This document shows, in pieces, positions 288 through 28,832 of a stretch of DNA of 32,127 nucleotides. Origin of the DNA: Thermoplasmata archaeon (GTDB taxonomy: Archaea; Thermoplasmatota; Thermoplasmata; RBG-16-68-12; JAGMCJ01); NCBI GenBank assembly GCA_023130895.1, contig JAGMAI010000095.1, positions 1 to 32,127 of the forward strand. The letters are read 5' to 3'. A model generated the notes under the pieces. It was not told the DNA's origin, searched no databases, and was given only the letters and a program-made list of their open reading frames with translations. The position numbers and the translations under genes are program-made. Within the stretch, counting starts at the first letter, position 1, and the number at the start of each line of letters is the position of its first letter.

Positions 288-1061
288 ATGTTCCCTTCAG
301 ACTCTTCGGCTCTTCTCCTAGGGCCTCCCGGGGTGGGAAAGTTCGAGTTCTCGGTGGAGTATGTCGTCGGAGCAATGGAAAACAAGGGTAGGGTGGTATT
401 CGTGGCAGTTGACATGCACCCCTTGGAGATACGCAGATGGATTATGAGATATGGAGGCGACATGCAGGAGAAGGAGGGGAAGAGCTTCATCTTCGTGGAC
501 TGCTATTCGCCGACCGTTGAGGACGTTCAAGAAGTCATCCCCAATGCCAAATCGTTGAGGGTCAACAGTCTGAGCAACATCGAGAGTATCGGAATGAACA
601 TATCCAAGGCAGTTGAGAGACTCGGAAGACCTGTCCGGATCGTCTTCTACACGCTCTCAACGCTCTTCCTGTACAATTCCTCTCAGGCAATGGCGAAGTT
701 CTTTCAGACAATATCATCGCGTGTAAGAACAGAATTCGGCTCGATACTGTATGTGCTTCAGGAGGGTGTGCACGAGGACAGGACCGTCTGTATGTTGGAA
801 TCACTCGTCGATGGCGTCGTTCAAATGCGATTCAACGAAGATCTCGGGCGGGAATGGCGAATACACCACTACAGAGGTGGCCGGTCGAATCCGCGCTGGA
901 CTGAATTCGATGCGAACAAGTACACCCTCGTTACACGAGTCGGTGAGAAGAGATTGATGAACCGATTTCTCGACTACGAGTATGGTGGATCTCCCAAGAG
1001 GAGGATGAAAGAAGTTGTTGCAGAACCTATCAGAGTTGAACCCCAGGCTCTCGAATCGTGA
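288..1061 (+). CDS. RecA/KaiC-superfamily (RAD55-like) ATPase, divergent
   Basis: 257 aa; P-loop-like LLLGPPGVGKFEF (GK followed by F rather than S/T); overlaps the next CDS by 4 nt; first gene of a same-strand operon. Confidence 0.7.
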   Translation: MFPSDSSALLLGPPGVGKFEFSVEYVVGAMENKGRVVFVAVDMHPLEIRRWIMRYGGDMQEKEGKSFIFVDCYSPTVEDVQEVIPNAKSLRVNSLSNIESIGMNISKAVERLGRPVRIVFYTLSTLFLYNSSQAMAKFFQTISSRVRTEFGSILYVLQEGVHEDRTVCMLESLVDGVVQMRFNEDLGREWRIHHYRGGRSNPRWTEFDANKYTLVTRVGEKRLMNRFLDYEYGGSPKRRMKEVVAEPIRVEPQALES

Positions 1062-1858
1062 GTCTCCGTCTCGAATCGGTGATGAAAATGCTCGTAGTTG
1101 AGACTTTAGGAGCTGTGGCTGGAATCGGTGTGTTCCTGGTTGGCGTCTTAGGTGCAACTACAATGAGGAGCAATCTCTGGAAGTCTCCCTTTGCCATGTT
1201 TGCCGTTGCAGGCCTCCTGCTGTCATCAAACTCGTTGATAAACATCTTTTACACCCTGGGTATGGTTCCCGGGGCCTTGGTCCCATTGGAAATGGCCATG
1301 ATGGTCTCCTTCATACTGCTTATTATGGGGATATCCTCGATTCTACTTGTCCTTGCCAGAATCTATGGCAACTCAACATTCAGCACAATACTCCTACCCA
1401 GAGACGCCTTTACAAGAATGACTCAAAGACTCGAGAAGATGTATGGCAAGGCAGGGGCGAAGCATATCATGTACGTCTTGGGAAAGGACTCCGAGTACCA
1501 CGTAGCATTGGAGATGAAGAGGAGGCTGGGGATGGATGGCGAATCCCTCGTGAAATGGCTGCCAGACATCTTCAGTCTGCTGGGATGGGCGGAGAAGACA
1601 AAGGTGATCGAATATGTGCCCAAGGAGACGATCCTCCTCAGGACGACAAACAATTTCGAAGCTCTGAACGCACCTTGTGACGGAACCGTCAGTTGCCACT
1701 TCCTTAGCGGTTCGATAGCTGGTTTGACCAAGGCCCTCCATCCCGGCAGAGACTGTGAGGTCGTGGAGACGAAATGTCAGAGCCTCGGTGATGATTACTG
1801 TGAGTTCACGGCCAGTCTCTTTCCACTTCCACGTTGGGGATTGGTGAGAAGCAAATGA
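1058..1858 (+). CDS. Membrane protein with C-terminal V4R (4-vinyl reductase-like) domain
   Basis: 266 aa; hydrophobic N-terminal segments (about residues 10-100), then V4R-like C-terminus GSIAGLTKALHPGRDCEVVETKCQSLGDDYCEF. Confidence 0.7.
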   Translation: MSLRLESVMKMLVVETLGAVAGIGVFLVGVLGATTMRSNLWKSPFAMFAVAGLLLSSNSLINIFYTLGMVPGALVPLEMAMMVSFILLIMGISSILLVLARIYGNSTFSTILLPRDAFTRMTQRLEKMYGKAGAKHIMYVLGKDSEYHVALEMKRRLGMDGESLVKWLPDIFSLLGWAEKTKVIEYVPKETILLRTTNNFEALNAPCDGTVSCHFLSGSIAGLTKALHPGRDCEVVETKCQSLGDDYCEFTASLFPLPRWGLVRSK

Positions 1859-1934
1859 ACTTGTCGAGGTTTAGGGTCTGGCTCGGATTGCGATTGCATC
1901 CGCATTTGGCAGAAGGAGCACGGAGCTGATTCCC

Positions 1935-2690
1935 ATGTCATCATCGTCCGAACATAAGGAGTGTGCCCATGAAAGAGTGAAGACATATGTTGAGGGCTTC
2001 GATGAGGCTCTTGGAGGCGGAATTCCGAGGGGCAGTATTGTGCTGTTGTCCGGCCTCCCAGGAACAATGAAATCGTCCCTAGCATACAGTATCCTCCTTC
2101 AGAACGCTGCAAACAAGGACCTACGAGGTCTCTACGTAACACTCGAACAGAGGCGCGACAGCATTCTGTCCCAGATGCGTACAATGGGCTTCACAAAAGA
2201 GGAGCCACTGGAGAAAATTGAGATATTCGACATCGCCCGGATAAAGAAAGAAGCAGGTGAAAGAGCGGAGGCCAAGTTTTGGATAGAGTATCTGAAGAAG
2301 GTGATCAACCTCAAGAGGAAGATATCGGACTTCAACCTATTCGTCCTCGATTCGCTCGATGCAATGGAATTCTTGGAGAGGGCTGAAGGGAAGCGGTCCC
2401 AGATCTTTCACTTGTTCGAATGGCTGAGAGAGTGGAAAACCACGGCCTTCCTTGTAACGGAGGCCCCGCCTGAACCAACAATCCAGGGTCTAGCGACCGC
2501 TGAAGTCAAGAGTGAGGTTGACTATCTCGCGGATGGCATAATCCATCTGAGAATGCACCACATCAACGACGTTGATGTGCAAAGAAGAATAAGGTGTATC
2601 AAGATGCGCGGTACTAGACATGATATGAGCTATTTCACGCTAGTATTCGAGAATGGCGTATTCAGCATAACGAGACCGATGAGCATGTAG
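1935..2690 (+). CDS. Single-domain KaiC-like ATPase (copy 1)
   Basis: YVEGFDEALGGGIPRGS; Walker A GLPGTMKSS; LYVTLEQ; Walker B LFVLDSLDAM; C-terminal DVQRRIRCIKMRGTRH. Confidence 0.85.
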   Translation: MSSSSEHKECAHERVKTYVEGFDEALGGGIPRGSIVLLSGLPGTMKSSLAYSILLQNAANKDLRGLYVTLEQRRDSILSQMRTMGFTKEEPLEKIEIFDIARIKKEAGERAEAKFWIEYLKKVINLKRKISDFNLFVLDSLDAMEFLERAEGKRSQIFHLFEWLREWKTTAFLVTEAPPEPTIQGLATAEVKSEVDYLADGIIHLRMHHINDVDVQRRIRCIKMRGTRHDMSYFTLVFENGVFSITRPMSM

Positions 2691-2704
2691 GAGAAGGAAT
2701 CGAC

Positions 2705-4843
2705 ATGGGAAAACCTCCAATATGCCCGTATTGCCAGTCTCCCAATCGAATGAATGTGTTGAGATGCCGTGTGTGTGGAGAGCGCCTGAGAGGCGATGAG
2801 AAGCAGCGGAATCAGTCTCTCCCGAAGCCGGTTGTACTTGAACGTGTCATGACCGGTGAAGTGTTCACAGCTGTGCTGGGTAAGGCGGGGTCCAAGAGGA
2901 AAGACAAGGAAGAGAACGCTGCACCAACTGCAAGCAGGACACGAATCAGTATCAAAGGTGAAGACCGAAGATCACGTCCGTATGAGGATCGTTTGAGTCA
3001 GGCAGACGACCTGGCTGCAAGGGCAGATGCTGCGATGGAGCTCGGCATGTTCGAAAAAGCAATCGAGTACTTGGACGAAGTCCTGGATATTTCACCGAGG
3101 GATCCCAAAGCTTTGTACAAGAAGGGCTTCTGCCTCGGGAGGCTAGGAAAACACGATGAGGCCATTACGTGGTACGAAAAGGCCCTCGAGGAGAATCCTG
3201 AGGATGCTCAGCTCTGGCATATGAAATGCGAGTCGGAAAGGGAGACCGAATCCTATAAGGATGCTCTTTTCTCTGCGGATAGGGCAATTCAAATTAGCCC
3301 AGATTTCGCCAACGCGTGGTTCTCGAAAGGATCCGTACTTCAGCTCTTGGGTAAGCTCGTAGAGGCCTATGTCTCCTTTATGGAAGTGTTGAGACTCGAT
3401 CCGAATCACACAGGAGCACTGACCCTGAGAAACGAGACAGAAGACACCTTGGCGAGTAGAGGTCTACACTCACTCATCGTTGGCAAGGCGTCGTGGAATG
3501 ACCTGCCCCGAAGCATGCAATACGATCCACAGTCGGGGCCATGCATGTCCAAGGCGCCTCTCGTATCGCTGGCAGAGGACGCCCAATCGGAAAATCGTTT
3601 CGATGAGAGTCTGTACTTCTACGATCAGGCACTTAGTGGAAACGAGGACGACTCCTTCCTCTGGCAGGAGAAAGGGGAAATCCTCTCCAAGATGGGCAGA
3701 TTCACACAGGCAGTCGGTTGCTTTGAGAGGTCTACCGCCTTGGCAAGTGGATCTCGTCGCGTTTCATCTGCACGCGGGAGGTACTCAGGACGTCATCTCG
3801 CCCCCCCGGCTCAGTCGCCTCGTCAGGAGGCAATGGAGGTCAAGGAATCGATGGGCGAAGCCACACGCCTGCCTGCAACGAAGAAGACCCCGCCCTTCGT
3901 CGGAAACGTCCCGGATGACAAGGCTAAGTCGGAAGTGAAGGAGCAAACGGCCTGCTCTTCGACAGTTCAACTTGGGGAAATACAAGAGAGGGCTATAGGC
4001 GCTGAGGACGTAGAGAGACTGGAGAAGAGAATCAGCGACATCCTCACACCCAAACAGAAATCAGATCGGGCCGAGGAGCAGACGGAGGATGAGGGTTTCT
4101 TCACAAGCAGACTGAAGATGAGGCTAGGAAGAGAAAGAGAGATACAGAAGACGTACGTGAGGGGCTTGGATGTTGCGCTCGGTGGGGGAATACCAAGTAG
4201 ACACGTTGTCTTGATCGCGGGCGCCCCAGGCACGATGAAGTCTTCTCTGGCCTTCTTCATACTATACAGCCACGCCTTGGAGGAGAGAAAGACGGGGTTG
4301 TACGTCACACTGGAGCAGAGCACAGCTAGCCTGATTGGTCAAATGGAGTCGCTTGGAATGGAGTATGATGGTGTTAGAGAATCGCTTAGGATACTTGATA
4401 TGGCCCACCTCAAGAGCCGTCATTCAATGACGAAGGAGAAGTGGATGAAAGTCCTCTACTCCCAAATCAAGAAACTGAAGCGTCGATTCGACCTGAGTTT
4501 CCTAGTCATTGACTCATTAGACGCTCTCATGGCGATTGGCGGTTTCAATCGGAAGAGGCAGAAGGCCTTCATGTTATTTGGGTGGCTGAGAGAACTCGGG
4601 GTGACGACCTTCGTTGTCGCAGAGAGACCGGATTTCGTTGTTGGCGGTAACGTCATTCAGTCAAAGAGCGTCGAGGACTTCCTTGCGGATGGCGTTCTTC
4701 TTTTGAGACTTCATCTTGTTGATGATGTGAATGTGCAACGAAGAATCAGATGTCTGAAAATGAGGGAGATGAGGCATAATAACGCGTATATGGCTCTCGC
4801 TTGGGATGATGGCTACTTCAACGTGACGAAAGTTGTCAGGTGA
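2705..4843 (+). CDS. Zinc-ribbon / TPR / KaiC-like ATPase fusion (copy 2)
   Basis: 712 aa; N-terminal CPYC...CRVC ribbon; TPR units (MELGMFEKAIEYLDEVLDISPRDPKALYKKGFCLGRLGKHDEAITWYEKALEENPED); C-terminal KaiC domain with GAPGTMKSS and FLVIDSLDAL. Confidence 0.85.
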   Translation: MGKPPICPYCQSPNRMNVLRCRVCGERLRGDEKQRNQSLPKPVVLERVMTGEVFTAVLGKAGSKRKDKEENAAPTASRTRISIKGEDRRSRPYEDRLSQADDLAARADAAMELGMFEKAIEYLDEVLDISPRDPKALYKKGFCLGRLGKHDEAITWYEKALEENPEDAQLWHMKCESERETESYKDALFSADRAIQISPDFANAWFSKGSVLQLLGKLVEAYVSFMEVLRLDPNHTGALTLRNETEDTLASRGLHSLIVGKASWNDLPRSMQYDPQSGPCMSKAPLVSLAEDAQSENRFDESLYFYDQALSGNEDDSFLWQEKGEILSKMGRFTQAVGCFERSTALASGSRRVSSARGRYSGRHLAPPAQSPRQEAMEVKESMGEATRLPATKKTPPFVGNVPDDKAKSEVKEQTACSSTVQLGEIQERAIGAEDVERLEKRISDILTPKQKSDRAEEQTEDEGFFTSRLKMRLGREREIQKTYVRGLDVALGGGIPSRHVVLIAGAPGTMKSSLAFFILYSHALEERKTGLYVTLEQSTASLIGQMESLGMEYDGVRESLRILDMAHLKSRHSMTKEKWMKVLYSQIKKLKRRFDLSFLVIDSLDALMAIGGFNRKRQKAFMLFGWLRELGVTTFVVAERPDFVVGGNVIQSKSVEDFLADGVLLLRLHLVDDVNVQRRIRCLKMREMRHNNAYMALAWDDGYFNVTKVVR

Positions 4844-5612
4844 TAGCATGAAATCGCATGGCAAAGTGATGACATATGTGAAGGGCTTCGATGATGAAAT
4901 CGGGGGAGGAATCCCTCCAGGACACATCACTCTGATTCGCGGCTCGACAGGGACTATGAAATCATCACTCGCTTACTACATCCTTTATAACAACGCCCTA
5001 GAAGGAAGAAAGGGCCTTTATATCACGCTCGAGCAAGATGCAGAGAGTCTGGCTGACCAGATGAGGTCCCTTGGGATGCCGATCAATGCCATACGTAAAC
5101 TCATCCCAATATTGGATTTGAGCCGAGGTCGGGAGAAACTCCAAGAACTTCACAGGAAGATGCGGTCACTGAAAGAGAAGGCCCTGTGGAGTCCGATACC
5201 TGAAAATGGATTCCTTGGAATCTGTCAAAACAAAGTAGAAGAGCTGATAGAGGAGCACAATTCTGATATGCTAGTAGTAGACTCACTGGAAGCCCTCGAA
5301 CTCGTTGCCGACTTCCGCGAGAGGAGGAAGGACCTGTACGATTTCTTTGAGTGGCTGAGGTTCCTCGATGTCACAGTGTTTATTGTCTCCGAATCGAGTC
5401 TGGACCTCCTGACCTTCATGAGGTCTGAGGAGACCTTCGATGAGGCTTTCCTCGCCGACGCGATATTCGAACTGAAGATGGAAACGGTCAACGGCATTGA
5501 TGTCCAGAGAAGAATTCGATGCGTGAAGATGAGGAGTGTTGAACACAAGACGGACTACTTCACTTTGGTTCATGAGAATAAGTGGTTTGAGATTGCGAAG
5601 GCTATCCGCTAG
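4833..5612 (+). CDS. Single-domain KaiC-like ATPase (copy 3)
   Basis: Walker A GSTGTMKSS; LYITLEQ; MLVVDSLEAL; DVQRRIRCVKMRSVEH. Annotated start is TTG; ATG at 4848 is more likely. Confidence 0.83.
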   Translation: MSGDSMKSHGKVMTYVKGFDDEIGGGIPPGHITLIRGSTGTMKSSLAYYILYNNALEGRKGLYITLEQDAESLADQMRSLGMPINAIRKLIPILDLSRGREKLQELHRKMRSLKEKALWSPIPENGFLGICQNKVEELIEEHNSDMLVVDSLEALELVADFRERRKDLYDFFEWLRFLDVTVFIVSESSLDLLTFMRSEETFDEAFLADAIFELKMETVNGIDVQRRIRCVKMRSVEHKTDYFTLVHENKWFEIAKAIR

Positions 5613-5623
5613 GGAGTGTTAAG

Positions 5624-6172
5624 GTGAAATGGAAAAGGCTCGGCCTCATTCTGTTGAGGTTTACAATCCTGTTCGCTGTTTCCGCGACCCTGGTTGGCGG
5701 GTTCTGGTTCCATGCCGAGCTCTACAAGCTCGGACTTCCGGCCATCATGGTCGCTGGGCCAATCATAGTCATTCTGATGATTCTGGCGTTCAGATTCGCA
5801 ATCTCGGGTGAATTTCGGCTTGTCATGAAGCCAAAGATGTCCCTCGCATTCGAGTTCAACGACATTGAAAAGGTCAGACACGGGGTGAAGACATCCATGC
5901 TCAGAAAACCGCAGGGCAGTCGGGACATTAAACCCGGCAGTGTGGTCACTGCGAAGATCAAAGGAAGGGATGTTGGAATCTGCAACGTGAGAATAATAGG
6001 AATCGACAGGAAGTATCTAGCGGATTTCGAGCAGAACGATTTGATTTCGCTTGGAATAGTGTCAGAAGCCGAGCTGTCTGACCTGTGGACTGGTCTGGGC
6101 GGCCAGATGGATGAAGGGGAATACAGTGAGCTAGTATTCTTCGAACCACTCGGGAAGGAGAAGAGAACATGA
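5624..6172 (+). CDS. Hypothetical membrane protein, two N-terminal TM segments
   Basis: 182 aa, GTG start; hydrophobic segments LILLRFTILFAVSATLVGGFWF and LPAIMVAGPIIVILMILAF; overlaps the next gene by 4 nt. Confidence 0.6.
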   Translation: MKWKRLGLILLRFTILFAVSATLVGGFWFHAELYKLGLPAIMVAGPIIVILMILAFRFAISGEFRLVMKPKMSLAFEFNDIEKVRHGVKTSMLRKPQGSRDIKPGSVVTAKIKGRDVGICNVRIIGIDRKYLADFEQNDLISLGIVSEAELSDLWTGLGGQMDEGEYSELVFFEPLGKEKRT

Positions 6173-7944
6173 CTCTCGAATTCGTTCTTGTGCTTATTGC
6201 TTCCATCCTCACTCTAGTTGTACTCATCGTCGGGATTGCTGCCCTGCGTTCGTGGATGACGAAGATGCCGTTTGTAGTCCTCGGCTTGCTCCTTCTGACC
6301 GTGAATCTGTCTTGGCTCGTGGGAAGAGCACTCCAGTCTCCTGGCATCGATGCCTTGAGCGTCTCCTCAACGATTCTGGTGTTCCCCACGACCACGATAC
6401 TAGTGATGACGTTCTTTCACGGACGCAGGTTCACGAGAAAGGTGTACCTTCCACTCATGGTTCTTGCTCCATCGCTCGGCATAATCCTGGTGTCGAGGAC
6501 AGAGGGATGGGCAAGTTCCGATCTATACGACCATTCTCTTTTCACCCTCTACGCAATTGCATGTCTCGGGATTTCGATTGGGGAATCCTCTTCTCATTGG
6601 CTGAGATCCCACATACTCCGGGAAGAAGGGTACCTGTTCGTACTCTCACTTCTGGTTCTTCTCACTACGGGGCTAATCTACCGAAGGATGGAAATCCTAA
6701 ATGCGAACAGCTTCGTAGGTCCAAGTCTCGGATTACTTCTGTTTGCTGCTATAGCTCTGATGGCACTACTTCGGGCCAATTATGCCCCGGTTAGGTTGCC
6801 ATCAAGGAGAAGTTCCCCAGAGGGGATGTCAAGGTTTGATCTTGAGGCAGGCAGGATTCATTTCATAAGTGAAACCAGACCCAAGTACTCAGTGACCATC
6901 TTCGCTGATATTATGAGAAACGGCAAGCCAGGGCTCATTCTGACATCCTCCAGCAGAGACACTTTCGAGGAAAGACACTGTGTTTCAAAGGCCGCTATCG
7001 TAAGAATCTCTTTCCATGGCGAACAGGGTTGCATCAGACCCTCCGACTTGAGTAGATTGTACTTCTCGGTCCGGGACTTTGCATTATCTCAAAGGCAGGG
7101 TGTAGTACTATTGGATGCTTTTCCAAGGATTGTCTGCAACAATGAGATCCAAGCGGTGAGAGAACTGACCATTCACATGCGACACCTTGCCAGAAGCACC
7201 GGTTGCACATTCATTGTGCCCAAGTCATTGATAACAGATATTGAGTTCTCCCGCATCGTGGGTCCGAAGGATATAGTGATGGAATTCCCTGACGTCGAAA
7301 AAAGGACTCTGCAGATACTTGACGCCCACATCGGTAAGCTGTGCCAATACCTCCTGCACGCCTACTGTAAGAGGAAGGACATCGCTATGAAGGATTTTCT
7401 TCTGGAGGACATTCCGGGTTTGGCGACATGGATGACCAGCACTCTGGATACACTAGGTGTGTACGCAGGCGATAATGCTGTGCTGAGGAATTGGGGACAT
7501 GAATCCCAAAGAATCTCCGCAGACCTATTGGGGTACTACAACTCTGACTTGGGTGAAGCTCAGCAACTCTCAGTGAATCCCCCTGTCATTTCAGGATCAC
7601 CCTTCTCGCAAGTCGTCTTCAATGGAAAAGAGGGATTGCCAGTTTTTGGCAAAGGGAAAGTTCGACCAAGAAAAGAGCTGGACACGAGAGAAAGATTGCT
7701 GCGAATATTCGCGAAGTATCTAGGGAAGGCTGGAAGATACGTCCTTGCAAAGGAAATTGAGAAACTCGGCAAGTCTCTGAACGAGGTTACGTTGGCGGAT
7801 GTTGCGGATATCGCAGAGAGAGCTCAAGAGGTTATGATTGAATTCGGGGAAATCGTCGATGTCAACGAGATCAAAGTGGACATGAAGTTGAGAGGATACA
7901 TCATGAAAGAGGAGATAATCGGAATCATGTCGGAAGGTGTGTGA
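6169..7944 (+). CDS. Multi-TM (about 7TM) sensor-like protein with DUF835 domain
   Basis: 591 aa; N-terminal hydrophobic helices; DUF835-like core PGLILTSSSRDTFEERH...IRPSDLSRLYFSVRDFALSQRQGVVLLDAFPRIVCNNEIQAVRELTIHMRHLARSTGCTFIVP. Confidence 0.7.
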   Translation: MTLEFVLVLIASILTLVVLIVGIAALRSWMTKMPFVVLGLLLLTVNLSWLVGRALQSPGIDALSVSSTILVFPTTTILVMTFFHGRRFTRKVYLPLMVLAPSLGIILVSRTEGWASSDLYDHSLFTLYAIACLGISIGESSSHWLRSHILREEGYLFVLSLLVLLTTGLIYRRMEILNANSFVGPSLGLLLFAAIALMALLRANYAPVRLPSRRSSPEGMSRFDLEAGRIHFISETRPKYSVTIFADIMRNGKPGLILTSSSRDTFEERHCVSKAAIVRISFHGEQGCIRPSDLSRLYFSVRDFALSQRQGVVLLDAFPRIVCNNEIQAVRELTIHMRHLARSTGCTFIVPKSLITDIEFSRIVGPKDIVMEFPDVEKRTLQILDAHIGKLCQYLLHAYCKRKDIAMKDFLLEDIPGLATWMTSTLDTLGVYAGDNAVLRNWGHESQRISADLLGYYNSDLGEAQQLSVNPPVISGSPFSQVVFNGKEGLPVFGKGKVRPRKELDTRERLLRIFAKYLGKAGRYVLAKEIEKLGKSLNEVTLADVADIAERAQEVMIEFGEIVDVNEIKVDMKLRGYIMKEEIIGIMSEGV

Positions 7945-8675
7945 CGATGAAGCTCATACAGACCTACATAGGCGGCTTTGACGTCATTTTGAACGGTGGG
8001 ATTCCCAATGGTCACAATGTGCTAATCGCAGGAACGCCAGGTACAATGAAGTCCTCTGTTGCCTACTCGATTCTCTATAACAACGCCATAAGAAGAGGCA
8101 CAAAGGGTTTGTACATATCTCTCGAACAGAAGAGAGCGAGCCTGCTGGACCACATGAAAAGCCTTGGATTGAGTCCAGAGACTGTCAAAGACAAGGTGAG
8201 TGTTCTTGACTTGAGTGAGCTTAGGAAGAAAATGGAGGACGCGGAAGAGGATATCTGGGTGGACTTCCTTTCGATGTATACGAAGAATATCAAGAATGTG
8301 TTTGACTATAACCTCCTCGTCTTGGATTCTCTCGACGCCTTGGAGGCTCTGGCAAAGTTCGAGGACTTCAGGATGGAGTTCTTCAAGATGTTGAGATGGT
8401 TCAAGGGTCTCGGGCTGACATCGTTCATAATCACGGAGATTCCAGAAGTGAGCCTCCCTCTGCTCTCGAGTCCTGACCTCTGGGAAGTCTTTGGAAAGCA
8501 CAAGGAAGAGTATCTCGCGGATGGAATCATCCTTCTGAAAATGGAGAAAAGGGGAGACTTCGAAGTACAAAGACGAATCAGATGCGTGAAGATGAGGAGC
8601 GCTCGTCATGATACAAGATATTTCGCGATTGTCTTTGAGAACGGAGAATTCCAAGTGACGAGAATCATGGCCTAG
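7941..8675 (+). CDS. Single-domain KaiC-like ATPase (copy 4)
   Basis: Walker A GTPGTMKSS; LYISLEQ; LLVLDSLDAL; EVQRRIRCVKMRSARH; ATG at 7947 is a likely alternative start. Confidence 0.85.
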   Translation: MTMKLIQTYIGGFDVILNGGIPNGHNVLIAGTPGTMKSSVAYSILYNNAIRRGTKGLYISLEQKRASLLDHMKSLGLSPETVKDKVSVLDLSELRKKMEDAEEDIWVDFLSMYTKNIKNVFDYNLLVLDSLDALEALAKFEDFRMEFFKMLRWFKGLGLTSFIITEIPEVSLPLLSSPDLWEVFGKHKEEYLADGIILLKMEKRGDFEVQRRIRCVKMRSARHDTRYFAIVFENGEFQVTRIMA

Positions 8676-8908
8676 TGGAAGCTCTTCTCATGTATCCTCT
8701 TCGGTGTCCTTCTCAATCCATGTATCAGAATGAGACATTATCATCGCTCTTGTTTGTGCATGCCAAGTTCAGGAAGGGTCTCAGACTCGATTCTGAGGGT
8801 TCCGTTTTAATGTTGCCATTACCGAATCAGATAACAGCCTAGAAAGTAAGATATATGCTCCTCCAAAAGGCCTCTCTATCCTATCTATCTAGGTGGGTGA
8901 CCTCAGCG

Positions 8909-13503: not shown

Positions 13504-14058
13504 ATGACGGAATCGAATCGCGCTCGCAAGAAGAAATCTCAAGTCGAAAAAGAGATAGTGGTTGTCAGAAAGGCCCGAGTGCATAAAGGAGATTCGGGAC
13601 TCGCCAACACGATGAAGCCCAGGGTAGCTTCCAAATCAGCTCCTGAGCCCCTAGAACTGCGTCTTAGAGAGGCCTCACAGTCGAAGATGACCTTTCATAT
13701 TACTCGGAAAAGAAGAGCTAGAAAGGCACCCAAACGTGTGCCAATAAGACGTGCATTCATTGAGACGAGTGAAATCGAGGACCAATCGAGAGTCCGAGAA
13801 AAGACTCCAAAGAGGGATATCATTGTGTCAAAGGCTGAAACCGAAGTCACCTATAATGAGAATGAGGGTAGCCAACCCTCACCCGAGAATAGAATCATCA
13901 AGACCTCGAGCCTGCGTCGCTTTGCTTCAGAAAAACTTCCTTCATCATCCGTTCTTCGAGAGGTTCTCATGGCGGAGAATGAGAAGCTTACAGCTGAGGA
14001 ATTTCTGGCAAAGCTAGATATCTGGCTTCACCTTTTCAAGAGGGATATCGGAGGATGA
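13504..14058 (+). CDS. Hypothetical highly basic protein
   Basis: 184 aa, Lys/Arg-rich (MTESNRARKKKSQVEKE...RKRRARKAPKRVPIRR); convergent 23-bp overlap with the recombinase. Confidence 0.45.
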   Translation: MTESNRARKKKSQVEKEIVVVRKARVHKGDSGLANTMKPRVASKSAPEPLELRLREASQSKMTFHITRKRRARKAPKRVPIRRAFIETSEIEDQSRVREKTPKRDIIVSKAETEVTYNENEGSQPSPENRIIKTSSLRRFASEKLPSSSVLREVLMAENEKLTAEEFLAKLDIWLHLFKRDIGG

Positions 14059-15370
14059 CTTTGTTGTTTGGGAGAGCCGTCACGAATTCCCATCCTTCAG
14101 TGACATACCTTTCGATTTGATCCATCCCTACGACCTTTTGATGATTGTTGTTTGGATTGGCCCCGACCAGACGGTTCCTGATGATGTCTCTCAGTTCCTC
14201 ATCTGAGATGTTGCAGAGCGAGTCCTTCTCTATCTCCTCCTCAGTGAACCCGGACATGCGCAACAGCTCTGTGCGGAATATTCGCTTCAGCTCTTCCTCT
14301 TTGGGAAGTTCGGGGACCTTTGTCTGCAGGAATTCCTGGCTCCTACTGTAGGCTTCCCTCATGTCCTCAACGACCTGAGCAGGCAGTTTGGCCTTGTTAG
14401 TGGTGTACCTATGCTCAATGTCTCCCACGTGCCCCATCCAAAAAGTTCGGTAATCACGGAGGACAAACCCTTTCGACTCTGCAAGCATGAGCTGTGTGTC
14501 GAAATAGGATCGGAGAACGTAGGGCCGCCATTGAAAGCCAGATTTCCTTATGGCTCCCCTAATCGCGTGTGAGACTTTGGTCGTTGATATGAAAGGCTTC
14601 CTGGCAGTTTTTGGCGTGAGAATGGGAGAATCCATCTTCATCTTCTCTCCATTGCGGAGTCTCTCCTCAAGGTAATCCTTCAGATATTCGCAACCCTCTT
14701 CGGACAGGAATGAGAAGTACCTCTGTCCAGCCTTGCTCAGTTCATGCCTAACCACGACTATGGTCGGTGTCTTTTCGAAAGCAATCGAATCGCCCTTTAC
14801 CTTCATCTCAGGAAGATCACCAACGACAAGTCCATCGTCTCCTGTGTAGCTGCCCAGTGTCTGTATCCTCAATCCTGAATGTGCCAGCAGAGCACACATG
14901 ACCCTGGTCTTCTTGTCTCCAGAAAGAAAGATCCCTTTGAGTTCCTGAGGAGTTGGCACTCTCTCGTCCTTCAATGTAGGATGAATCCCAGAGTCTCTGA
15001 CCTTGATCTTCTTCTGTATGACCTTGTCGTTGTGGCCAAGCCAGGATCTGAGTGCCTTCAGTATCGACGTTATGTATGAACCTGTCAGTTCCTTGTCCTC
15101 CAACTCGGTCACGTAGTCCAAAAGAACCTTGTAGAGTTCCTTCTTCGATTTTGCAGCGAACTTTCTTGGCGTAAGCTCGTGGCCTCTGCAGAAGTTGCCC
15201 AATCGACGCAAGTAGACATCAGCAGTCACGATGGAACCTCTTGCCACGTTGTCATACCAGCGCTTGACCTCTTTGTCTTCGAGTAGCGACTTGTAGGCAG
15301 TTCCTCTTCCCTTCCGCTTCGTCACGATGAGACTATCAGTTAACCCCAATATAATGGTTTCGTACCGCAA
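14036..15370 (-). CDS. Tyrosine recombinase / integrase (XerC/D-like)
   Basis: 444 aa; catalytic-type motifs HSGLRIQTLG, YVLRSYFDTQ, WMGHVGDIEHRYTT; TTG start directly 3' of tRNA-Lys. Confidence 0.8.
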   Translation of the reverse strand: MRYETIILGLTDSLIVTKRKGRGTAYKSLLEDKEVKRWYDNVARGSIVTADVYLRRLGNFCRGHELTPRKFAAKSKKELYKVLLDYVTELEDKELTGSYITSILKALRSWLGHNDKVIQKKIKVRDSGIHPTLKDERVPTPQELKGIFLSGDKKTRVMCALLAHSGLRIQTLGSYTGDDGLVVGDLPEMKVKGDSIAFEKTPTIVVVRHELSKAGQRYFSFLSEEGCEYLKDYLEERLRNGEKMKMDSPILTPKTARKPFISTTKVSHAIRGAIRKSGFQWRPYVLRSYFDTQLMLAESKGFVLRDYRTFWMGHVGDIEHRYTTNKAKLPAQVVEDMREAYSRSQEFLQTKVPELPKEEELKRIFRTELLRMSGFTEEEIEKDSLCNISDEELRDIIRNRLVGANPNNNHQKVVGMDQIERYVTEGWEFVTALPNNKVILRYPS

Positions 15371-15376
15371 TTAGTA

Positions 15377-15450
15377 CGGGCCTGAAGGGATTCGAACCCT
15401 TGACCTATCGGTTAAGAGCCGATCGCTCAACCTAGCTAAGCTACAGGCCC
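15377..15450 (-). tRNA. tRNA-Lys(CUU)
   Basis: Minus strand GGGCCTGTAGCTTAGCTAGGTTGAGCGATCGGCTCTTAACCGATAGGTCAAGGGTTCGAATCCCTTCAGGCCC+G; anticodon loop CTCTTAA; acceptor GGGCCTG/CAGGCCC. Confidence 0.95.
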
Positions 15451-15485
15451 ATCTGGTGACTGAGAACGCACTCACTATATTATCC

Positions 15486-26582: not shown

Positions 26583-27374
26583 ATGGGGGAGTCCATTGAT
26601 ACTGATTTTCTCGAGCGGGACAGACACGAGAGAATGAGAAGGATTCCGTGGATAGACCTGGACGCGGTCAGAACCGCTCGAGTTCTCGTCGTCGGAGCAG
26701 GCGCTCTCGGCAACGAAGTCGTGAAGGACATGGTTCTGGCGGGCTTCGCGGGAATCAGTCTCGTCGATATGGACCACGTCGCCAGGTCCAATCTGACCCG
26801 ATGCGTGTTCTTCCGGGAGCAGGATTCCGAAAGGAGGCGGCTCAAAGCCGAAGTTGTTGCAGAAAGAGCTATGGAACTCGACCCAGCGGTCAAGATCACA
26901 CCCTACACCGACAGAATCCAGGATATGCCTGAGGATTTCATCCCCTCCCATTCAATGATCCTCGGCTGCCTGGACAACGTGGCCACAAGACTCCATCTGA
27001 ACGCTCACTGCTACAATGAGGGCATACCATACATCGATGGGGCAATGGACGGGCTGATCGGAAAGGTGCAAGTCGTCCTTCCACCGGAAACGGCCTGTCT
27101 CCAGTGCGGAATGAACAAGACACACTCGAAGATCATGGAACTCAGGTTCAGCTGCACCGGCGAAGATGTCACGTTCTACGAGCCCAAGGTCGCCGCAGAG
27201 ATCACGACAACGAGCATAGTCTCGGCGGTCCAGGTGAGAGAGGCCCTCAAGATTGTGTCCGGAAGAGCGGAGGCTGTCCTGTCCAATGTATTCTACTACG
27301 ACGGTCTGAGAAACGTCTCAGAGACCCTCGAGGTCTCGAAGAACCCTGATTGCCCACATCATGGGGGGCAGTAG
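26583..27374 (+). CDS. E1-like ubiquitin/ThiF-family activating enzyme
   Basis: RVLVVGAGALGNEVVKDMVLAGF...LVDMDHVARSNLTRCVFF...ILGCLDNVATRLHLNAHCYNEGIPYIDGAMDGLIGKVQVVLPPETACLQCG; RFSCTG candidate catalytic Cys; zinc pair CLQC + CPHH. Confidence 0.92.
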   Translation: MGESIDTDFLERDRHERMRRIPWIDLDAVRTARVLVVGAGALGNEVVKDMVLAGFAGISLVDMDHVARSNLTRCVFFREQDSERRRLKAEVVAERAMELDPAVKITPYTDRIQDMPEDFIPSHSMILGCLDNVATRLHLNAHCYNEGIPYIDGAMDGLIGKVQVVLPPETACLQCGMNKTHSKIMELRFSCTGEDVTFYEPKVAAEITTTSIVSAVQVREALKIVSGRAEAVLSNVFYYDGLRNVSETLEVSKNPDCPHHGGQ

Positions 27375-27382
27375 TTTTGTTC

Positions 27383-27401
27383 CTCCGAAAACCTTTAAGA
27401 A
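27383..27401 (+). promoter_or_regulatory. BRE/TATA-like promoter upstream of the Ub-like gene
   Basis: ctccgaaaacctttaagaa about 30-50 nt upstream of the start; SD-like gggggag at 27423-27429. Confidence 0.5.
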
Positions 27402-27434
27402 CGCCTCAGGCAATAACTGTACGGGGGAGTGATT

Positions 27435-27674
27435 GTGACAACGAGAATCAGCGTCAAGAACGCGGAAACAGGGTCCTCGGTCGAGATGGAGCTGGAGGCC
27501 GAGAATACCGTCGAAGAGATAATCGAGAGCGCGGCCAGCTACTGGGAGGTCTCTCCTGGGGCCTATGTCCTCCGTCGTGGCAAGGCGGTTCTGCGCGGAC
27601 AGTCGACGATTGTGGAAGCGAAGATCCGTGAGGGCGACGTGGTCGAGCTGATACCTGACCCTGAGGGCGGCTAG
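27435..27674 (+). CDS. Ubiquitin-like beta-grasp protein ending in Gly-Gly
   Basis: MTTRISVKNAETGSSVEMELEAENTVEEIIESAASYWEVSPGAYVLRRGKAVLRGQSTIVEAKIREGDVVELIPDPEGG*; GTG 27435 follows SD gggggag (alternative GTG 27429). Confidence 0.85.
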   Translation: MTTRISVKNAETGSSVEMELEAENTVEEIIESAASYWEVSPGAYVLRRGKAVLRGQSTIVEAKIREGDVVELIPDPEGG

Positions 27675-28193
27675 GTGCGGTTCATGGGGCTGCCGAAGGA
27701 CATTCTGAGGTCCCGCGTGAGAAACGAGGTCCTGATGTGTCAAAGGAATCTCAGGCACGCCATTTCGGTCTCTGATAGGACTCTTCAGTCCTTCCCCATG
27801 GAGGTGAACCTGACGCTCGTGAAGACCCCCGGACCCATCTGGAAGGATGACACGATAAAGCATCGATTCACACACAAGCTGTCGATTCTGATAACTGAGG
27901 AGTATCCGTACGAGAAGCCCATCGTCAAGTGGAGGTCAGACGTGTTCCATCCCAACATCATGCTTCCTGGTGATGGTGGATACGTATGCACCAGGCTCTT
28001 GGACGACTGGAGTTTCAACTCGACCCTGCTCACGTTCGTCAAGGGAATCGAAACGCTGCTGACCAGTCCCAACCCCGCGAACCCCTTCGGTAGCGACTCG
28101 TGCACGCGGGCCGCTCAGTACTTCAACACTCACGAGTACAGCCCGCCAAATGTGATTGAGGATTCCAGGAATAAGCCGAAGATTCTGGGATGA
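27675..28193 (+). CDS. E2-like ubiquitin-conjugating (UBC-fold) protein
   Basis: YPYEKPIVKWRSDVFHPNIMLPGDGGYVCTRLLDDWSFNSTLLTFVKGIETLLTSPNPANPFGSDSCTRAAQYF: HPN motif and catalytic-type Cys; abuts the Ub-like stop codon. Confidence 0.92.
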   Translation: MRFMGLPKDILRSRVRNEVLMCQRNLRHAISVSDRTLQSFPMEVNLTLVKTPGPIWKDDTIKHRFTHKLSILITEEYPYEKPIVKWRSDVFHPNIMLPGDGGYVCTRLLDDWSFNSTLLTFVKGIETLLTSPNPANPFGSDSCTRAAQYFNTHEYSPPNVIEDSRNKPKILG

Positions 28194-28196
28194 CCC

Positions 28197-28832
28197 ATGA
28201 AGCGCCCGCGCGTTGTGAGCGAAAGGAAGAGAGCCATTCTTGAGCGGTCGCCACCGCCGTCGAATCGGTCCAGGCCCCATTTCTGGCTCAAGGATGAGAG
28301 TAGACGCGAAATCGAGGAAGCACTCGCGGGAACAGGGCCACTTCCTTTGTACATCTCAAAGACCGCCGAGGCAGAGATGAGGAATCACAGCGTCTCTTCC
28401 GGGAATCAGAACCTCGAAGCGATGGGTCTCCTTCTGGGTGACGTCTTCGCTCACTCAAAGAAATCCTACACCGTGGTCAAGAACGTCGTTACGACGGACC
28501 TCCAGGCATCAGGCGTCTCTGTGAGTTTCCACAGGAACGGGTTCGAAACGCTCTTCGATCGCCTCGACGAGGCGGATTTCGATTATGTCATTGTGGGCTG
28601 GTACCACTCCCACCCCGGATACACTTGCTTCATGTCGCCCAAGGATATTGAGACGCAGCGGCGGATGTTCAGGGAGGACTTTCACTTCGCGGTTGTCCTG
28701 GACCCGTTGAAGTTGCAGATCGAGGCTTTCACACTCTACGGGGAGGGTTGCATATCCGTACCCTTCGCGGTCTACTGGGAGGAACACGAAGATCCGTACG
28801 GAAGGAAGAAGCTCTCGCTCAAACCCAGATAG
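28197..28832 (+). CDS. JAB1/MPN/JAMM metalloprotease (Rpn11-like)
   Basis: EAMGLLLGDV...VGWYHSHPGYTCFMSPKDIETQ: JAMM HxH-x(10)-D with upstream Glu; starts 3 nt after the E2 stop. Confidence 0.93.
   Translation: MKRPRVVSERKRAILERSPPPSNRSRPHFWLKDESRREIEEALAGTGPLPLYISKTAEAEMRNHSVSSGNQNLEAMGLLLGDVFAHSKKSYTVVKNVVTTDLQASGVSVSFHRNGFETLFDRLDEADFDYVIVGWYHSHPGYTCFMSPKDIETQRRMFREDFHFAVVLDPLKLQIEAFTLYGEGCISVPFAVYWEEHEDPYGRKKLSLKPR

Follow-up and report, generated by a model that had tools for sequence, protein, structure and literature searches.

Eukaryote-like ubiquitin operons are already known from archaea. That of Caldiarchaeum subterraneum has been reconstituted biochemically, and its Rpn11 removes the pro-peptide after the Gly-Gly of the modifier (PMC5654768, PMC6043591). 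A JAMM-3 group comprises archaeal JAMMs closer to Rpn11, reported from operons that also encode Ub, E1 and E2 (PMC6043591), and an Rpn11-like protein (WP_019177758) is on record from Methanomassiliicoccus luminyensis (PMC4453063). While PMC6043591 and PMC4453063 name single JAMMs or clusters, we describe here a Thermoplasmata-wide cassette; in the open-licence literature we found no description of such a cassette or of a RING-like partner. Two further systems, Bil (BilABCD) and type II CBASS (Cap2/Cap3), resemble it in combining E1, E2 and JAB, with a Ub-like protein (Ubl) in addition in Bil. Bil has a tandem Ubl, Cap2 is an E2-E1 fusion, and both occur in a defence-island setting.

The locus under study lies in a stretch of 32,127 nucleotides from a Thermoplasmata archaeon, referred to here as the window. 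A first-pass annotation had proposed four consecutive same-strand genes for E1, Ubl, E2 and JAMM, and this reading was borne out. All four open reading frames (ORFs) are on the plus strand: an E1-like activating enzyme (26583..27374), a Ubl (27429..27674), an E2-like ubiquitin-conjugating enzyme (27675..28193) and an Rpn11-like JAMM (MPN+) protease (28197..28832). The E1, E2 and JAMM match Pfam ThiF (5.5e-52), UQ_con (1.7e-13) and JAB (6.5e-14), respectively, all above cut-off. Alignment with relatives puts the probable start of the Ubl at GTG 27435 and not at 27429, in agreement with the 79 aa read at first, and that of the E2 at ATG 27684 and not at GTG 27675. Of the spacings of 0 and 3 nt given originally, the 3 nt between E2 and JAMM stand, but the gap between Ubl and E2 is probably 9 nt with the revised start. 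The end of the E1 gene is 54-60 nt from the Ubl start. The stretch 27388..27428 (plus strand), with an A+T-rich box (AAAACCTTTAAGAA) ~35-45 nt upstream of that start, is, as read from the sequence, a possible separate promoter for Ubl-E2-JAMM. Dozens of genomes carry homologues in this order, which is more than chance would give.

The E1 is a protein of 263 aa with a single adenylation domain of the ThiF/MoeB type (ThiF spans residues 20-258). Its Cys191 (RFSCTG; codon 27153-27155) is invariant in 23 aligned sequences and is a candidate thioester cysteine; an AlphaFold2 model from five sequences had a pLDDT of 35, and it is conservation that suggests this role. C172, C175, C257 and H260 probably form a Zn site. 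For the Ubl, Pfam gave sub-cut-off matches to YukD, ubiquitin and ThiS. An AlphaFold2 model from the single sequence is a beta-grasp (pLDDT 83.9, pTM 0.73), as had been proposed, and its best PDB match by Foldseek is 6fnn, the Caldiarchaeum Ub, with further matches to NEDD8, ubiquitin and SUMO; the Ubl is thus predicted to fold like ubiquitin. It ends in PDPEGG directly before the stop codon, a motif conserved among aligned relatives with PDPQGG in one. Identification of the Ubl through a sequence profile (A2) was dropped: its top PDB matches were polyubiquitins inflated by their repeated domains, and single domains gave i-Evalues of ~5-6. It is the fold that identifies the Ubl.

The E2 retrieved solved E2s from the PDB with phmmer (best 1.2e-11). 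It carries an HPN motif, and its Cys105 (codon 27987-27989) aligns with their catalytic Cys, so that the cysteine first picked out by eye does lie at the UBC active site. The best phmmer matches of the JAMM in the PDB are Rpn11 (8e-15), which upholds the resemblance first noted, and its motif, GWYHSHPGYTCFMSPKD, is intact (E74, H137xH139, S147, D150). It is also an Rpn11/CSN5-like archaeal JAMM like those of the JAMM-3 group, a comparison made from the text description of that group.

A single-domain MoeB/ThiF-type E1 and a Ubl with weak ThiS/MoaD matches could also belong to a MoaD/ThiS/Urm1-like sulfur-carrier system that serves tRNA thiolation or cofactor synthesis, with the E2 as an accessory. 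We regard this as highly improbable, the least likely of the readings considered. The same cassette encodes an E2 with conserved HPN-Cys and an Rpn11-type JAMM, an E1 profile scores the eukaryotic E1 adenylation domains of UBA1/UBA3 above MoeB, and relatives carry further, more distant E1-like genes. The archaeal SAMP/Urm1 systems likewise have an E1-activated beta-grasp modifier and a JAMM desampylase; they contain no E2, whereas the cassette encodes one, and scores against the NCBIfam models for UbaA, SAMP1 and desampylase were far below cut-offs.

The closest comparison is with the Caldiarchaeum/Asgard operon, which likewise has Ub, E1, E2 and an Rpn11-type JAMM. As in eukaryote-like archaeal Ub operons generally, the window encodes a ubiquitin-fold modifier with Gly-Gly, an E2 with HPN and Cys, and an intact Rpn11-type JAMM. 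It differs from the Caldiarchaeum type in that its E1 lacks both the C-terminal extension of the Caldiarchaeum-like E1s of family f20 (414-440 aa) and a C-terminal UBL/UFD-like domain, its Ubl ends in PDPEGG, its JAMM is contiguous with the cassette on the same strand, and there is no small RING gene among the cassette ORFs, a RING-like gene being found elsewhere in the genome. The f20 operons themselves (L073, 3363-9493; L074, 4669-10087) are Caldiarchaeum/Asgard-like, with a larger E1, an E2, an Rpn11-like JAMM and a pro-Ub that ends in AGGWIFK or AGGWIFQ. L074 encodes, in addition, a large protein that matches RING and RWD below cut-off, and part of the E1 C-terminus of L073 is repeated after an intervening ORF.

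Of 400 class genomes, 121 have an E2 match (PF00179) above the Pfam cut-off; they represent 43 of 105 genera and include eight of family f12 and two of f20, the latter with a Caldiarchaeum-like E2 as best match. A family E2 profile also matched strongly in members of the phylum beyond this class, and a Ubl profile matched 140 of the 400. Among 21 genomes tested for mcrA, the gene was present in those of f11, f24, f29, f30 and f32 and absent in the window's genome, its congener G014 and two f2 genomes; the system therefore occurs in both methanogens and non-methanogens. From mcrA in genomes of the class Thermoplasmata, we infer that these five families are Methanomassiliicoccales and that mcrA-positive genomes of the order of M. 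luminyensis carry the cassette.

We compared regions around the E2 matches (60 larger and 60 shorter). The rule is E1>Ubl>E2>JAMM on one strand; the order is Ubl>E2>JAMM>E1 in f26/f28, 0.9-2 kb separate E1 and Ubl in f2, and E1 lies away from the rest of the cassette in f17, f21 and the L036/L037 genomes. Genes read by eye from their sequences as a SIS-domain gene (44 loci, 12 families), L13 and S9 (42 loci, 11 families), TrpRS (28 loci, nine families) and PheRS-alpha (24 loci, nine families) neighbour the cassette, which holds this place, with PheRS/TrpRS and with SIS, L13 and S9, across about ten families. In trees of E1, E2 and JAMM most families are clades, the exceptions being f11, f24 and f30. 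Synteny and trees fit a mainly vertically transmitted chromosomal locus. Synteny, one of the checks that the first-pass annotation had named, is kept in relatives.

A cassette with the domain set of Bil (E1, Ubl, E2, JAB) and weak matches to PADLOC E1-E2 and JAB profiles might instead be an antiviral defence system akin to Bil or type II CBASS. We consider this very unlikely: the chromosomal locus is stable across families and the trees are largely family-monophyletic, the Ubl is single and not tandem, E1 and E2 are separate genes with no E2-E1 fusion, no nucleotide cyclase was recognised among the window ORFs read, and the cassette is co-inherited with a gene beside psmA, to which we return below. 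A housekeeping or proteasomal role, which the first-pass annotation had rated at least as likely as defence, is supported over defence by the conserved synteny, the mostly family-monophyletic trees, the weakness of the defence-model matches and this co-inherited RING-like gene on the upstream side of psmA. The broad reading, a conjugation set of eukaryotic type in a housekeeping setting and not in a defence island, stands.

We tabulated the catalytic features of 119 loci by script, using a crude motif search in which some E1 entries came out as '?' or as a neighbouring motif; the Ubl end was unreadable in 13 loci, eight of them in f12. The Ubl ends exactly in GG in 49 loci and carries 1 to 15 further residues in 57. 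With the 57 tailed Ubls a JAMM was found in 55 loci, and its motif was intact in 55 of 55; with the 49 GG-ending Ubls the JAMM was intact in 44 and flagged as inactive in five. One of the five, L189 (G072), is truncated where its contig ends and was left out. The complete JAMM ORFs without HxH are thus four (G018, G054, G234 and G306), all beside Ubls that end exactly in GG. The clearest example is G306, which differs in both features from its congeners, with their GG-S or GG-R and an intact JAMM. The co-variation of Ubl tail and JAMM motif is suggestive only, because the association has a Fisher p of 0.044 and the four HxH-less JAMMs come from two genera, the genomes not being independent.

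Outside f12, all tabulated loci have a Cys at the active-site position of the E2, including L068, where the pattern missed it and the printed sequence shows GIVC. In f12 the position is occupied by H, S, S, K, R or R in six of the eight genomes, and the printed E2 stretch of a seventh has no Cys, so that at least seven of eight lack the catalytic residue. Seven f12 genomes were searched: none had a match to the family JAMM, and the family E1 gave no match or one at the level of distant E1-like proteins only. The proteins read from L062-L064 join a Ubl-like N-terminal part, which has no Gly-Gly, to the E2-like part, a possible non-catalytic reuse. These fusions lie at 8011-8694 (minus strand) in L062, 6330-7004 (plus) in L063 and 8019-8783 (minus) in L064; those of L062 and L063 have TrkA/TrkH-like genes and the gene for a coiled-coil-like protein of 1454 aa nearby.

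Within f11, 22 genomes, of which 19 belong to genus g51 and three to g25, match the Ubl profile and have no E2 match. Among the f11 loci without E1/E2 that we read, the Ubl C-terminus is degenerate, the DPEGG end being replaced in L146, L147, L148, L150 and L160. In L146, L150 and L160 a short downstream ORF, beside SIS and AP-endonuclease-like genes, resembles part of a JAMM by eye (unscored). In G035, of the window's own genus (L145, 6736-7764), the Ubl is intact, the JAMM is 5'-truncated and E1 and E2 are missing; G035 still carries a RING-like gene beside psmA, a point against the overall reading given below.

The cassette had been called a minimal E1-Ub-E2-DUB system. The four identities stand, but 'minimal' is probably incomplete because a candidate E3 is encoded elsewhere in the genome. 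Among 44 near-complete genomes, zf-RING_2 matches at E<=0.001 occurred in 17 of 22 with an E2 and three of 19 without (p=1.3e-4), and in two of three f12 genomes. Most methanogen matches are one kind of protein, short, with a C4HC3 finger followed by several zinc ribbons; several RING-like proteins have an N-terminal hydrophobic segment, and some are large membrane proteins. The zf-RING_2 match in the window's genome is a membrane/DUF835 protein in a 788-aa frame, which we set aside as the E3, its whole-protein score of 23.2 falling below the gathering threshold of 27.3. We prefer the smaller RING-like/zinc-ribbon family beside psmA, since it fits the pattern of co-loss better.

The RING-like finger has seven invariant ligands (C9, C12, C25, H32, C35, C42 and C45); the eighth, C27, is missing in f29, and Lys or Gln takes the usual fourth-ligand position. 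In whole-protein scans it scores below the Pfam gathering threshold (23.2 against 27.3; 19.2), and it may bind zinc without ligase activity. We searched the class with a profile of 14 fingers, all from E2-positive genomes and therefore biased toward them. Within f11, a match was found in 35 of 36 E2-positive genomes (none in G351) against two of the 24 identifiable E2-negative ones (G176, weakly, and G267), with p=4e-13 in a test that ignores relatedness; in genus g25 the counts were 3/3 and 0/4. Outside f11, many E2-negative genomes match as well (for example in f4 and f19), so the class-wide count is no test of co-occurrence. Among those listed, these matches are mostly long ORFs of other architecture, but G061, G124 and G088, E2-negative too, have short ORFs.

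The RING-like gene lies away from the cassette, in surroundings that suggest a possible link to the proteasome. In 17 of 20 loci read, chosen from strong matches across families and not at random, the RING-like gene is followed on its strand by psmA at a distance of 0.2-5.4 kb; the exceptions are in G011 (f17), G023 (f21) and G053 (f2). FtsZ and/or a Pop5-like gene (a name read by eye, with no Pfam match) fill the interval, and beyond psmA come SBDS and usually also Rrp4. One of the 17 is the locus of the window's genome (L290, contig 117), where FtsZ, proteasome alpha and SBDS are all borne out by Pfam. The RING-like protein encoded at this locus is truncated by the end of the contig and has a match to the finger profile at 5e-17; in Pfam it shows zinc ribbons only, with no zf-RING_2 match at E<=0.01. 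Both 20S alpha and beta genes are present. On co-occurrence and the psmA neighbourhood, the RING-like/zinc-ribbon protein upstream of psmA is tentatively the best E3 candidate, although a position beside psmA is not proof of function.

We consider it likely that these genes make up a ubiquitin-like cascade of the Thermoplasmatota, largely vertical in descent and probably linked to the proteasome, with a candidate E3. The steps, the E3 role and the destination that we infer are as follows. The C-terminal Gly of the Ubl ending in PDPEGG would be adenylated by E1, and the Ubl, probably loaded on Cys191, would pass to Cys105 of E2 and then to substrate lysines, from which the Rpn11-like JAMM would remove it again. 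In lineages with residues after the Gly-Gly, the JAMM may also mature the precursor; the window's Ubl already ends in GG, so there the JAMM would act only in deconjugation. The RING-like protein of L290 may serve as E3, and since this candidate lies upstream of the 20S alpha gene, delivery of substrates to the 20S proteasome would be the likeliest output. The combined evidence argues for the E1-E2 relay and JAMM deconjugation; RING-assisted proteasomal targeting is put forward more tentatively.

The same E1-Ubl-E2-JAMM set could perform genuine conjugation without degradation (SUMO/Urm1-like and regulatory, on membrane or ribosome-associated proteins), the psmA neighbourhood being incidental. 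The hydrophobic N-terminal segments or large membrane type of several RING-like proteins would suit such a role, as would the translation genes adjoining the cassette, the presence of SBDS, Rrp4 and FtsZ in the superoperon of the RING-like gene, any of which could be the link, and the fusion of the f26/f28 Ubl behind zinc ribbons and DUF835. Against this, the JAMM is closest to proteasomal Rpn11 and the RING-like gene and psmA are same-strand neighbours in most loci read; on balance we find non-degradative conjugation rather unlikely, and keep proteasomal delivery as the preferred output.

A fuller version of the proteasomal reading, to which we give somewhat less than an even chance, is that Thermoplasmatota, including methanogens, have an E1-Ubl-E2, RING-like E3 and JAMM proteasome pathway distinct from that of Caldiarchaeum/Asgard, and that it has repeatedly decayed in a consistent manner: E1/E2 and E3 lost together, the Ubl without its Gly-Gly, the JAMM without its metal site, with one family retaining a Cys-less fusion of Ubl and E2 in a non-catalytic role. 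If the cascade works as proposed, ubiquitin-style tagging with a proteasome link would not be confined to eukaryotes, Asgard archaea and Aigarchaeota, and would extend widely through a euryarchaeal phylum among whose members are methanogens with cultivated relatives. The question of an archaeal route from ubiquitin to proteasome would then be testable by proteomics and genetics, since such methanogens carry the system, and the decay series would supply natural controls for each step.

Several related arrangements were seen in passing. G026 has a further system (L077, 4930-8628, minus strand) with a Ubl ending in VGGKDE, an E1 with an N-terminal extension, a Ubl-E2-like fusion with Cys, a JAMM that includes a hydrophobic segment, and two small proteins that combine hydrophobic segments and CxxC motifs. 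In f26/f28 (L084, 6811-11879; L085, 6717-11144) the Ubl stands behind zinc ribbons and DUF835, and the JAMM has a long coiled-coil-like extension. Among the G401/G400 loci (L163, 5764-7220, plus; L162, 6260-7966, minus; L161, 1942-7032, plus), G401 encodes a Ubl (PDPEGGY) next to an N-terminally extended JAMM and, at another place, a second JAMM next to an E2; the JAMM of G400 forms the C-terminus of a protein of 1696 aa. The window's own genome encodes a second JAB protein of 356 aa (L239, 775-1845, minus strand; G000:C214) beside a small zinc-ribbon-like ORF. Within the window, an ORF that looks integrase-like by eye (14036-15451, minus strand) lies directly beside a tRNA-Lys; a copy of the tRNA-Lys of at least 14 nt, the mark of an integrated element, was found nowhere else in the window. 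Several KaiC/RecA-like ATPase genes, again by eye, form a run at 288-8675 (plus strand), one of them fused to TPR-like repeats.
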